A stretch of 64,000 nucleotides of DNA from Roseicella frigidaeris. GTDB lineage: Bacteria > Pseudomonadota > Alphaproteobacteria > Acetobacterales > Acetobacteraceae. Positions within the stretch are counted from its first letter, which is position 1; every line of letters starts with the position of its first letter. Below are positions 58,899-64,000 of this stretch, piece by piece. Below the pieces are notes generated by a model, which searched no databases, was not told the DNA's origin, and saw nothing but the letters and a program-made list of their open reading frames with translations. The position numbers and the translations under genes were made by a program. The DNA is taken from assembly GCF_003258945.1 (NCBI RefSeq), contig NZ_QLIX01000009.1, positions 20,399 to 84,398 of the forward strand, given 5' to 3'.

Positions 58899-60818
<1,920 letters not shown>

Positions 60819-60878
60819 ACTGTCCGCTCCATCGACGCGACGAACCTCCCGGCGACCCGGGATGCCCGTGCCTTGCCC

Positions 60879-62840
60879 CTACCCTATGGTGTCGTCCCGC
60901 AATGCCCCACGGGACGTCACCGGGCCCCATGCGGCGCCGGCGGGCGCCCCGTCCAGGGCCCCATCCGGGGACTGGTCCTGCGATGCTTCCTCCGGGATGG
61001 CCTCGGTCTCGCCGGCCCGCAGGGCGGCGAGCGCCTTCGTCAGTCCGATCAAGCGCTTCTGCGCAGCCGGGTCGTTGCGGTCTGTGAGGAGACGTTGCGC
61101 TTCCGTCTGGTCCTTGATCAGTTCCGCCTCGCCTCGCAGCAGCCCGAAGAAATGCCACCAGCCATCCAGCGCCTCTTTCGGCTGGGCCGTGGGATGCGCC
61201 GCGGCGCAGAGCCCGGTGGCCCGCACGGCCCAGGCCACGGTATCTTGCATACCGTTCTGGGCGAGGTGGCCTGCCAGGGCTTCCGAGTCAAGGAGTTCCG
61301 CCCCGCGCAGCCAGTCCAGCAGGGCGTGGCCGAGGGCCTCGCAGGGACCCGCCGGCAGGTCGAGCGTCATGAGGGCTTCCTCGACATCGGGCAGGATGGC
61401 GGGGTGGCGCAGCAGGATGGCGAGCAGGTTGCGGGCCCGCTCCAGCCGGATGGCGGCGATGTCGATCGGCCGGCGCTGCAGCCCGGGCGGCGGCGCCAGC
61501 GCCTCGCCGCGCCGCCCCGCGCCGCCCCGGCGCGGCCCGCTGCCGCCGCCCGGCCCGCCACCTGGCCTTGGGCGGCGCTGCTCCTCGAAGAAGCGGTCGA
61601 GCAGCACGCGGCGATACTCGCCGGAGAGGATGCGGTCGGGGATCAGCCGCGCCGCCGCCTCGAGCTGACCGCGGAGGGCGGCGCGCTGCTCGGGCGTCGC
61701 CCGCGGCCGGCCCGCCGTCAGCAGGTCGTAGAGGGCGGCGGAGAGCGGCTTCGCCGTCTCGAGCACCGCCTCGAAGACCCGGGCGCCCCCCTTCCGCACC
61801 AGCGTGTCCGGATCCTCGCCGCCGGTGAGGGTCGCCAGCCTCAGGCTGCGCTCGGGGCTGAGCAGCGGCAGGGCGATCTCGGCCGCGCGCACGGCGGCCC
61901 GCCCGCCTGCGGCGTCGCCGTCAAAGCAGAGCACGGGTTCGGGCGTCATCTGCCAGAGCAGCCCGAGCTGCTCGGCCGTCAGGGCGGTCCCCAGTGGCGC
62001 CACGGCGCCGCCGAAGCCTGCCTGGTGCAGGGCGATGACATCCATATAGCCCTCGACCACCAGGACCGTCGCGCCGCGGAAGGCCGCCTCCCGCGCCAGG
62101 TCCAGCCCGTAGAGGCCCCGCCGTTTCTGGAAGAGCTCGGTTTCCGGTCCATTGACATATTTCGGCTGGCCGTCGCCGAGGATACGCCCACCGAAGGAAA
62201 TAATGCGGCCGCGCCGGTCGCGGATCGGGAACATCACCCGGCCGAAGAACATGTCGACCAGGCCGGCTTCGGGCCGCTCCGGGTCGCGCGGCTTCATCAG
62301 CCCGGCGGCGACGAGCTGCGCCGGCTCGATCCCCTCGGGCTTCAGCTCGGCGGCGAGCGCCCCCCGCCCCTCGCCCGACCAGCCGAGGCCGAAGCGGGCG
62401 ATGGTCGCCTCGGTGAGGCCGCGGCGGTGCAGGTAGTCGCGCGCCGCCGCCCCCTCCGGCTGGGCGAGGCGGCGCTGATAGGCCGCGGCCGCGGCGGCCA
62501 GCACCTCGTGCAGGTCGCGCGCCCGCCGCTCCCGCGCCGCGGCCTGGGGCGTCGGCCTCGGCACCTGCATCCCCGCCTCGGCGGCGAGCCGCTCCACCGC
62601 CTCGGGGAAGCTCGCCCCCTCGGCGCGCATCAGGAAGGTGATGGCATCCCCATGCGCGCCGCAGCCGAAGCAATGGAAATGGTCGTCATAGACGTAGAAG
62701 GAGGGGGACTTCTCGTTGTGGAAGGGGCAGCAGCCCTTCCACTGCCGGCCGTTGCGGACCAGCCGCGCCTTGCGGCCGATCAGCCCGTGCAACGGGGTCC
62801 GGGCGCGCAGCTCATCGAGGAAGGCGGGCGGGAGGGCCAT
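60879..62840 (-). CDS. dnaG: DNA primase
   Basis: Makes RNA primers at the replication fork. It has 653 residues: an N-terminal zinc ribbon (CCPFHNEKSPSFYV, HCFGCGAHGD), a TOPRIM domain with VLVVEGYMDVIALHQAGF and the acidic triad in CFDGDAAG, and a C-terminal helicase-binding domain (from about 540). A basic, Gly/Pro/Arg-rich linker (RPRPGGGPGGGSGPRRGGAG, about 435-465) separates core and tail and is longer than in E. coli. It is between yqeY and rpoD. Confidence 0.96.
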   Translation of the reverse strand: MALPPAFLDELRARTPLHGLIGRKARLVRNGRQWKGCCPFHNEKSPSFYVYDDHFHCFGCGAHGDAITFLMRAEGASFPEAVERLAAEAGMQVPRPTPQAAARERRARDLHEVLAAAAAAYQRRLAQPEGAAARDYLHRRGLTEATIARFGLGWSGEGRGALAAELKPEGIEPAQLVAAGLMKPRDPERPEAGLVDMFFGRVMFPIRDRRGRIISFGGRILGDGQPKYVNGPETELFQKRRGLYGLDLAREAAFRGATVLVVEGYMDVIALHQAGFGGAVAPLGTALTAEQLGLLWQMTPEPVLCFDGDAAGGRAAVRAAEIALPLLSPERSLRLATLTGGEDPDTLVRKGGARVFEAVLETAKPLSAALYDLLTAGRPRATPEQRAALRGQLEAAARLIPDRILSGEYRRVLLDRFFEEQRRPRPGGGPGGGSGPRRGGAGRRGEALAPPPGLQRRPIDIAAIRLERARNLLAILLRHPAILPDVEEALMTLDLPAGPCEALGHALLDWLRGAELLDSEALAGHLAQNGMQDTVAWAVRATGLCAAAHPTAQPKEALDGWWHFFGLLRGEAELIKDQTEAQRLLTDRNDPAAQKRLIGLTKALAALRAGETEAIPEEASQDQSPDGALDGAPAGAAWGPVTSRGALRDDTIG

Positions 62841-62879
62841 CGCTGCGGCACAGTGTAGCGGCGGCGGGACCGCCGCGCA

Positions 62880-63344
62880 TCAGCCGCCGAGCGCCGCCTT
62901 CACCAGCGGGCCGGCCTTGCCAAGATCCATGCTTGCGGCGTGCTTCGCGCGCAACACCGCCATCACCTTGCCCATCTCCTTCACGCCCGTCGCGCCGGTC
63001 TCGGCGATGGCGGCCGCGATGGCGGCGCGGGTCGCGGCCTCATCCATCTGCTGCGGCAGGAAGCCCTCGATGACGGCGATCTCCGCCTCCTCCTTGGCGG
63101 CGAGCTCCTCGCGGCCGCCCTGGCGGTAAAGCTCGACGCTCTCCCGGCGGGACTTGGCCATGCCGCGCAGCATGGCCACGATCTGCTCCTCCGGCACCTG
63201 CTCGATGCCCGAGGGCCGGGCGGCGATGTCGGTGTCCTTCAGCTTGGCGAGGATCATGCGCAGCGTCGATGTCCGCGCCGTGTCCTTGGCCAGCATGGCG
63301 GCTTTGAGCGCCGCGGTGAAACGGCTGCGGAGGTCCTCGGCCAT
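62880..63344 (-). CDS. yqeY: GatB/YqeY domain protein
   Basis: A 154-residue protein with the GatB C-terminal (YqeY) fold, which in other proteins contacts tRNA. It shows the YqeY pattern [58 protein letters not shown] and [20 protein letters not shown]. Its exact role is unsettled. The ATG at 63344 has GAGGAAC upstream. The gene diverges from carA, the standard order in alphaproteobacteria. Confidence 0.92.
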
Positions 63345-63417
63345 GGCGTTCCTCGCTGGATGGGCGGTGGGGGCGCGGCTGTAGCATGCCGGGCGGCGGC
63401 TCGGGAGACCGGGCTCC

Positions 63418-63472
63418 GGGAATCGTTTTCCCATTTTCCATCATCACCATTGATCTGGGAAATACTTTCCCA
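63418..63472. promoter_or_regulatory. Candidate operator palindromes before carA
   Basis: TGGGAAA-TAC-TTTCCCA (63456-63472) is a perfect 7-3-7 inverted repeat ending 12 bases before the ATG at 63485. A weaker half-matching copy GGGAA-TCGTT-TTCCC lies at 63418-63432. The repeated GGGAA/TTCCC half sites in an otherwise GC-rich region look like binding sites of a dimeric helix-turn-helix protein, which could be the domain fused to CarA. Confidence 0.55.
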
Positions 63473-63484
63473 CATACCTGTGCC

Positions 63485-64000
63485 ATGCGGACGGTCGAAG
63501 ACATCATCGCTCTCCTCGGCGGCCCGGACGCCGCCGCGCAGCGTTGCGGCATCGGGACCGAGGCGGTGCGCAAATGGCGCCAGGCCCGGGCTATCCCGCC
63601 CCGCCATTGGCCGGCCATCCTGGCCGCCACCGGCCTGTCCCTGTCCGAGCTTCCCGGCGCGCCGCCCCCCGGCGCCCCGGAGGCCGGCCCTGCTTCCCGT
63701 GCGGAGACCCCCATGCCCCAGACCGAGACCGCCCCCGACGCCATCCCCGAAGGCGCGACGGCCTGCCTCGTGCTCGGCGACGGCAGCGTCTTCTGGGGCC
63801 GCGGCTTCGGCGCCCATAGCCGCCCCGGCCAGCCGCCGGTCGCCGAGGTCTGCTTCAACACCGGCCTGACCGGCTACCAGGAGACGCTGACCGACCCCTC
63901 CTATGCCGGGCAGATCATCACCTTCACCTTCCCCCATATCGGCAATGTCGGCACCAATGCCGAGGATCTGGAGGCGGCGACGCCGGTCGCCCGCGGCCTC
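63485..64000 (+). CDS. carA: Carbamoyl-phosphate synthase small chain with N-terminal HTH-like domain (3' end outside window)
   Basis: Glutamine-amidotransferase subunit of carbamoyl-phosphate synthase, for pyrimidine and arginine synthesis. Frame 2 is open without a stop from 63485 to the window end. Residues 1-60 form a Cro/YdaS-like helix-turn-helix ([34 protein letters not shown]), and residues 61-76 an Ala/Pro linker. CarA proper starts at M77 (63713), followed by [19 protein letters not shown] and [20 protein letters not shown], with [14 protein letters not shown] at the end. The Met at 63713 has CGGAG 7 bases upstream, so a shorter CarA alone may also be made. The triad Cys-His-Glu lies beyond the window. 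Similar HTH-like leaders (carph-isopro domain) are known near carA genes, so this is probably regulatory. Confidence 0.85.

Follow-up and report, generated by a model that had tools for sequence, protein, structure and literature searches.

The carA gene that opens near the end of the analysed DNA of Roseicella frigidaeris (64,000 nucleotides, here called the window) very probably encodes a trigger enzyme, HTH-CarA, which would repress carA through two operators, O1 and O2, in its own promoter, and would be accompanied by a domain-free form started at the internal codon Met77. In the mechanism proposed here, the Cro-type domain fused to CarA would bind the two 17-bp palindromes, O2 and O1, of the carA promoter, and the protein bound at O1 would shut out RNA polymerase, leading to the negative autoregulation of carA; carB, placed further downstream, would probably also be held in check. 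A single mRNA would give rise both to the repressor form, from a probably leaderless start, and to the plain enzyme form, from Met77 with its own Shine-Dalgarno (SD) sequence. Taking into account what comparison among relatives reveals, namely the domain and the sites, where exactly these sites lie in predicted promoters, how they co-vary and are lost together with the domain, and the conservation of the internal start, we infer that HTH-CarA binds DNA, that it represses rather than activates, and that both starts are used.

Reading of the window sequence bears out that the carA frame runs without a stop from the ATG at 63485 to the window end, as stated in the original prediction. The frame continues beyond it in the same genome (C87:83883-85301), giving a protein of 472 amino acids in which a carph-isopro domain is followed by a Pro/Ala-rich linker and then by CarA. 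The HTH-like domain announced for the frame start (codons 1-56, 63485-63652, plus strand, like all features of carA given below) is indeed there, residues 4-56 matching NF046037 (carphisopro) with 67.9 bits and the full protein belonging to this family with 65.9 bits (cut-off 38), and the name carph-isopro, mentioned in the original prediction, is the correct one. The linker (63653-63712), whose length and sequence differ widely among relatives, contains the SD-like CGGAG (63702-63706) that precedes Met77 (63713-63715), as earlier described. Homology to CarA had been placed from codon 77 onwards, and this has to be corrected, since the profile matches begin at residue 93-95. CarA proper, the carbamoyl-phosphate synthase small subunit, occupies 63761-64000 in the window and runs on to C87:85301; residues 93-468 of the full protein belong to TIGR01368 (443.2 bits, cut-off 307.35), PF00988 and PF00117 also match this part, and the protein contains the amidotransferase motif GICLGHQ.

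AlphaFold2, run with 31 aligned domains, returned a 56-residue helical model (mean pLDDT 96) with helices at residues 4-10, 14-21, 25-34 and 39-49, the third being the predicted recognition helix. The first-ranked Foldseek match of this model was the N15 Cro-operator complex (6on0; E 0.0077, query TM 0.74), and Xfaso 1 Cro (3bd1, TM 0.76) and P22 Cro (1rzs, TM 0.75) were within the first ten, no match of this search reaching E ≤ 0.001. The same Cro proteins were obtained in a profile search of PDB sequences (E 0.001-0.15), reflecting weak sequence similarity. The domain falls below the gathering cut-offs of both P22_Cro (PF14549; 22.7 and 24.8 bits, 21 in the full protein, cut-off 30.2) and YdaS (PF15943; 20.8 and 23.2 bits, cut-off 30), and its resemblance to P22_Cro appears to be one of fold only. 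A Cro-like HTH fold is predicted with high confidence for the carph-isopro domain.

The fusion of this domain to carA is the rule in the family and not an oddity of one genome. A single domain over the cut-off exists in the own genome, and domains over the cut-off were found in 189 of 200 genomes of the family, understood here as the grouping used by the genome collection, which is separate from the NCBI families; a one-genome oddity is rejected by this distribution. Besides the window, the carA fusion itself was confirmed by reading in 67 fused relatives (39 + 28, two of the 67 being repeats), a count that leaves aside L150, whose locus ends inside the gene; including the window and removing the two duplicates, there are 66 distinct fused loci. 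The nearest relatives by the HTH-CarA protein include Crenalkalicoccus, Siccirubricoccus and Belnapia. In the NCBI taxonomy, Crenalkalicoccus belongs to Roseomonadaceae and Acidocella to Acidocellaceae, both in the order Acetobacterales. Outside the family, no carA fusion was found in the 49 class-level loci read (29 + 20; one of them, L115, ends soon after the domain).

In all 67 fused relatives read, the domain and the start of CarA share one open frame, uninterrupted by any stop or frameshift (in L049 a stop appears later, inside CarA, 270 residues from the frame opening). Selection on the first codons, which had been named as a further check, is evident as well, the pN/pS of the domain, pooled over 18 pairs of relatives of which five share the window sequence, being 0.124, in agreement with purifying selection. 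The shared open frames and this selection reject a fortuitous open frame.

Absence of the domain was studied in a sample of 12 family genomes, consisting of nine without a match, two with a match below the cut-off, and G116, which belongs to the genus of one of the nine. Six of them gave no carA and four gave only partial CarA matches, two of which begin at the first bases of the contig. The remaining two, G029 and G116 (both of genus g29; loci L220 and L221), carry carA without the domain; in G116 a domain match exists somewhere in the genome, and none in the 600 bases before its carA. The members of this genus have small genomes, and their carA is devoid of both domain and operators.

Upstream of carA, both palindromes of the original prediction are present: the 7-3-7 palindrome TGGGAAATACTTTCCCA at 63456-63472, considered as the putative proximal operator O1, and a weaker copy, CGGGAATCGTTTTCCCA, at 63417-63433, the putative distal operator O2, located 39 bp upstream of O1. 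In the 5.8 Mb of the own genome, the core GGGAAN5TTCCC has four occurrences, two of them being the carA pair, versus one for the reversed control pattern, and a chance palindrome is rejected by this count. The two other core matches (L106, C56:17706; L107, C78:52614) have GC-rich centres.

Allowing one mismatch (at least 9 of the 10 core bases), this core was found within 350 bases upstream in 34 of 39 fused loci versus none of 41 unfused carA loci; these controls lack the domain, a profile built from the fused domains giving them 2.5 bits at most (versus 95 for two fused loci), and in one of them, L061, only 39 upstream bases are present. The five fused exceptions form an Acidocella-like group with sites of the CCGGAAN5TTCCGG type at the same places. 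When both forms were scanned from -400 to +240, all 39 fused loci gave matches versus three of the 41 controls, each of the three having a single one-mismatch variant downstream of the match start, that is, inside the match, and none having the GGG form. Another 28 fused loci, retrieved because of their domain and without regard to sites, all showed sites at 10 or more of 12 positions. Taken together, the 66 distinct fused loci all have a 17-bp palindromic site upstream and 65 have two, the sites being called at 9 or more of 12 positions of either consensus, a similarity search that favours those two forms. The spacing between the two sites is mostly 38 bp (28 loci) or 39 bp (13 loci), and it lies between 38 and 40 bp in 47 of the 65. 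Of 120 family genomes, 76 contain the exact 17-mer, in most cases as one or two copies. Among the matches listed there are 75 exact sites, of which 57 are no more than 250 bp from the domain, seven lie elsewhere, and 11 belong to genomes with no domain position listed, so that 57 of the 64 with a known domain position are close to it. One family genome (G072) has 11 exact copies, the others at most three among the matches listed.

The palindrome seems to be part of the core promoter itself, a point missing from the original prediction, and it would take part in it in two different ways. In the first layout, to which the window and 44 of the 66 loci in all belong, the proximal site is at most 55 bases from the reading frame, and a TTG stands exactly six bases before it in 38 of the 44 loci, versus 0-6 loci at the 13 other offsets counted; in the six remaining loci TTG is missing from that position. 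In the hexamer that follows the operator, the second base is A in 39 of the 44. The operator would therefore constitute the 17-bp spacer of the predicted promoter, which in the window reads TTGATC-TGGGAAATACTTTCCCA-CATACC, with the -35 box at 63450-63455 and the putative -10 box at 63473-63478. An ATG is found 6-9 bases past the hexamer in 39 of these 44 loci, to which two scored as TTG with an ATG six bases on have to be added; L027, L097 and L157 depart from this spacing. Since the ATG at 63485 is only 6 nt past the putative -10 box, the carA mRNA is probably leaderless, and the long form of loci with this layout would probably be made from such leaderless mRNAs.

In the second layout, presented by the other 22 loci (12 of them named, all acetic acid bacteria), the TTCCCA half is followed by TA at a distance of exactly 17 bases in every case (22 of 22), versus none at the offsets on either side and at most six at any other offset. 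Here the right half of the operator would act as the -35 box, and 22-56 bases separate the -10 box from the start codon. With O1 serving as promoter spacer or as -35 box, a bound protein should exclude RNA polymerase; both layouts would pit the operator against polymerase binding, and repression is thus favoured.

Changes in the domain are accompanied by changes in the sites. Towards the end of helix 3, residue 33 (codon 33, Gln in the window, 63581-63583) is Q in 59 of the 66 loci, S in four, A in one and T in two. Positions 2-5 of the half-site are GGGA in 208 of 234 half-sites of the Q33 loci and CGGA in 17 of 20 half-sites of the S33 and A33 loci, and the T33 loci have four GGGA, three CGGA and one GAGA half-sites. 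This is the pattern expected if residue 33 contacts base 2 of the site, a likely specificity contact, the co-variation representing at most two evolutionary events (the five loci of the Acidocella-like group and two close relatives). Regarding co-loss, the domain-less loci L220 and L221 have no site of either form (at 9 or more of 12 positions) in the 700 bases upstream.

The other side of the operator region is occupied by yqeY (62880-63344, minus strand; PF09424, 142.1 bits), dnaG and rpoD, which together (58899-63344) adjoin carA divergently, so the region parts carA from a macromolecular-synthesis-like cluster. The gene carB is on the same strand as carA, at C87:87262, and an SDR gene, a transporter-like gene (below model cut-offs) and one further stretch lie between the two; co-transcription of carA and carB is possible.

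It could be argued that the palindromes serve another regulator of carA, of the ArgR or pyrimidine type, and that the HTH domain does something else. Several regulators target carA in E. coli, and a few exact sites are found away from carA among the matches listed, both of which would suit such a regulator. In gammaproteobacteria, carAB is counted in the core regulon of ArgR (PMC5343134), this being the one mention of carAB in that regulon survey, in whose main text Rhodospirillales does not occur. Nevertheless, the GGG-form site is absent from all 41 domain-less carA loci (one with only 39 bases upstream) and sites are absent from the two domain-less genomes of one genus, the site changes along with the recognition helix of the domain, and the own genome has one domain over the cut-off and the carA pair as two of its four core matches, so that another regulator is quite improbable. 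No more probable is that the domain activates instead of repressing, or that O2 serves the divergent yqeY-dnaG-rpoD genes. The location of the two sites between divergent genes, 38-40 bp apart in 47 of 65 two-site loci, would be compatible with either role, but O1 lies within the promoter spacer or on the -35 box, and this is the classical position of a repressor. Autorepression by HTH-CarA is therefore the reading that we prefer.

Turning to the two starts, an ATG is present in 50 of the 66 linkers versus 7.2 expected when the linker bases are shuffled, and an ATG with an SD match of at least 4 nt in 40 versus 0.6 expected. In four further linkers a purine-rich leader precedes GTG (L051, L053, L152) or TTG (L027). 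The last ATG ahead of the core is at a median distance of 48 amino acids before GYQE in the fused genes (n = 53, duplicates kept), and the nearest in-frame ATG of unfused carA is at 49 (n = 41). Met77 looks, from these distances, like the ancestral carA start kept in service. Production of the long form alone, with the internal ATG left as an unused relic of the fusion, would agree with the 16 linkers that have no ATG, among them four of the five of the Acidocella-like group (the fifth, L044, has an ATG without SD), and another 10 linkers have an ATG without a 4-nt SD match. Dual start is consequently not universal, and the conservation of Met77 among relatives, as originally envisaged, holds for the 40 linkers with ATG and SD and does not extend to all. 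The retention of this pair in 40 of 66 highly variable linkers, together with the GTG and TTG codons of four others, makes an exclusive long form unlikely all the same.

The reverse proposal, that Met77 is the only true start and the upstream frame a leader or a fortuitous frame, could invoke the good SD at Met77, when none is evident before 63485, and the fit of Met77 to the ancestral start position. However, the domain is conserved as a protein (pN/pS 0.124) and held by 189 of 200 genomes, and the transcript is predicted to start at the first ATG itself, which leaves this proposal with hardly any credibility. An enzyme repressing its own gene and a gene with a dual start had been put forward as two options; both gain strong support from the comparison of loci, and they would be mutually compatible rather than alternatives.

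The signal is the least certain part of the proposed mechanism. The classical effectors of carbamoyl-phosphate synthase, as known in E. coli, bind CarB, and free CarA is for this reason favoured as the repressing species. As a tentative guess, somewhat doubtful in our own estimation, CarA not engaged with CarB would be the form that represses, and repression would measure the surplus of small subunit.

This domain, or a related one, is also located at the N-terminus of other enzymes, namely LeuA (L223, L224), ArgH (L114), NnrE/D (L135), HisZ (L168, L181), CoaBC (L177), ArgB (L183) and PdhA (L187). The partners of these named loci were identified by NCBIfam or Pfam, and those of the other loci in the same groups were judged by eye and from the length of the frame. 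In LeuA, ArgH, NnrE/D and one HisZ (L181, 38.2 versus 38) the domain scores above the cut-off, and in L168, L177, L183 and L187 below it. We lean, with reservations, towards the idea that the carph-isopro/Cro domain serves in general as a module for self-repression, grafted onto the N-termini of at least eight enzymes (CarA, LeuA, HisZ, CoaBC, ArgB, ArgH, PdhA and NnrE/D) in separate proteobacterial lineages, typically with repeats in their own promoters, these proteins being autorepressors with a single target and sensing how much of the free enzyme is present.

The LeuA fusions (L223:1-1695, minus strand; L224:1495-3183) come from two genomes outside the class and show, by eye, TTGTC/GACAA repeats upstream. 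Those of CoaBC (L177-L180, L188-L216) have a related domain and upstream arrays of TTCAC/GTGAA half-sites; in the alphaproteobacterial family concerned, the domain matches at E ≤ 0.001 in 54 of 61 genomes and is over the cut-off in none of the 61. A group k-mer test of the GTGAA/TTCAC repeats gave no shuffle out of 200 reaching the observed value (31 loci; two of the 33, L206 and L208, were dropped because the upstream stretch was not that of the gene's start). The same test was positive for the HisZ fusions of family f43 (0 of 200 shuffles) and for ArgB (3 of 200), and negative for the HisZ fusions of families f17 (29 of 200) and f108 (28 of 200). HisZ fusions (L168-L176, L181, L182) exist in these three separate families, and upstream of the gene in f43 lie two ATTCATATNATATGAAT-like palindromes, separated by about 39 bp. 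In a single-locus shuffled palindrome test, the paired sites of four f43 loci reached P values of 0.003, 0.000, 0.000 and 0.013, and the best palindrome was significant for ArgH (P 0.010, one locus) and NnrE/D (P 0.013, one locus). The other 16 enzyme loci gave in this test only three isolated low pair values (L174, 0.010; L178, 0.017; L184, 0.003), and the pair of L184 lies in GC-rich sequence away from its TTACT repeats. The remaining fusions are those of ArgB (L183-L186), single loci of ArgH (L114) and NnrE/NnrD (L135), and PdhA (L187), which has no clear upstream repeat by eye.

Most of the loci L110-L138 have the domain on the N-terminus of a membrane protein with a mitofilin-like C-terminus, the partner match being taken from L112. 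Excluding L114 and L135, the 27 loci of this series present no consistent palindrome, with pair values ≤ 0.05 only in L119, L131 and L138, and the module may thus do something else in these mostly mitofilin-like fusions. If the proposal is true, the enzyme series, with its common domain type and differing repeats, would offer a test set for the evolution of enzymes into transcription factors and for a recognition code relating residues to bases. Pathways under feedback control could moreover be built with the help of such a portable self-repression domain.

The domain and its name were already known to NCBI, and its operators and the role proposed did not appear among the matches listed in the literature searched. 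The NF046037 entry names the domain only and does not mention operators, autoregulation, a second start or the additional enzyme partners. On our own reading of the name, 'car' probably records the CarA fusion and 'isopro' the fusion to 2-isopropylmalate synthase; isoprenylcysteine methyltransferase was considered for the latter and rejected, the fusions found being with 2-isopropylmalate synthase. The term carph-isopro was not found in the literature searched, and no publication on the HTH-CarA fusion or its sites appeared among the matches listed, in a search that lacked most subscription journals. If the proposal is true, a domain named by annotation pipelines without a function would become a defined autorepressor, and carA would be controlled by way of CarA itself throughout a large bacterial group, to which the industrial acetic acid bacteria belong.

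With regard to known systems, a trigger enzyme joins an enzyme and a DNA-binding domain in one protein, as HTH-CarA does by sequence and predicted fold, and has sites in its own promoter, as comparison of the loci indicates for carA. The repressors Cro of phages N15, P22 and Xfaso 1, which act on short operators within their own control region, have their fold in common with the HTH-CarA domain. Unlike them, this domain is fused to a metabolic enzyme; no phage genes lie beside HTH-CarA within the stretches read, and none of 55 matching records in the plasmid collection covers 80% of the query. In E. coli, carAB is controlled by PepA, PyrH, ArgR, PurR and RutR, which are separate proteins, whereas in the system proposed here the regulator would be CarA itself. 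PutA, BirA, NadR and PepA of E. coli are enzymes that double as DNA-binding regulators, as proposed for HTH-CarA. PutA is described as binding only the putA-putP spacer and repressing it (PMC8249747). HTH-CarA would differ from these four in the enzyme concerned, in its Cro-type domain, in the internal start that would supply a domain-free form, and in a target range that seems largely confined to its own promoter.
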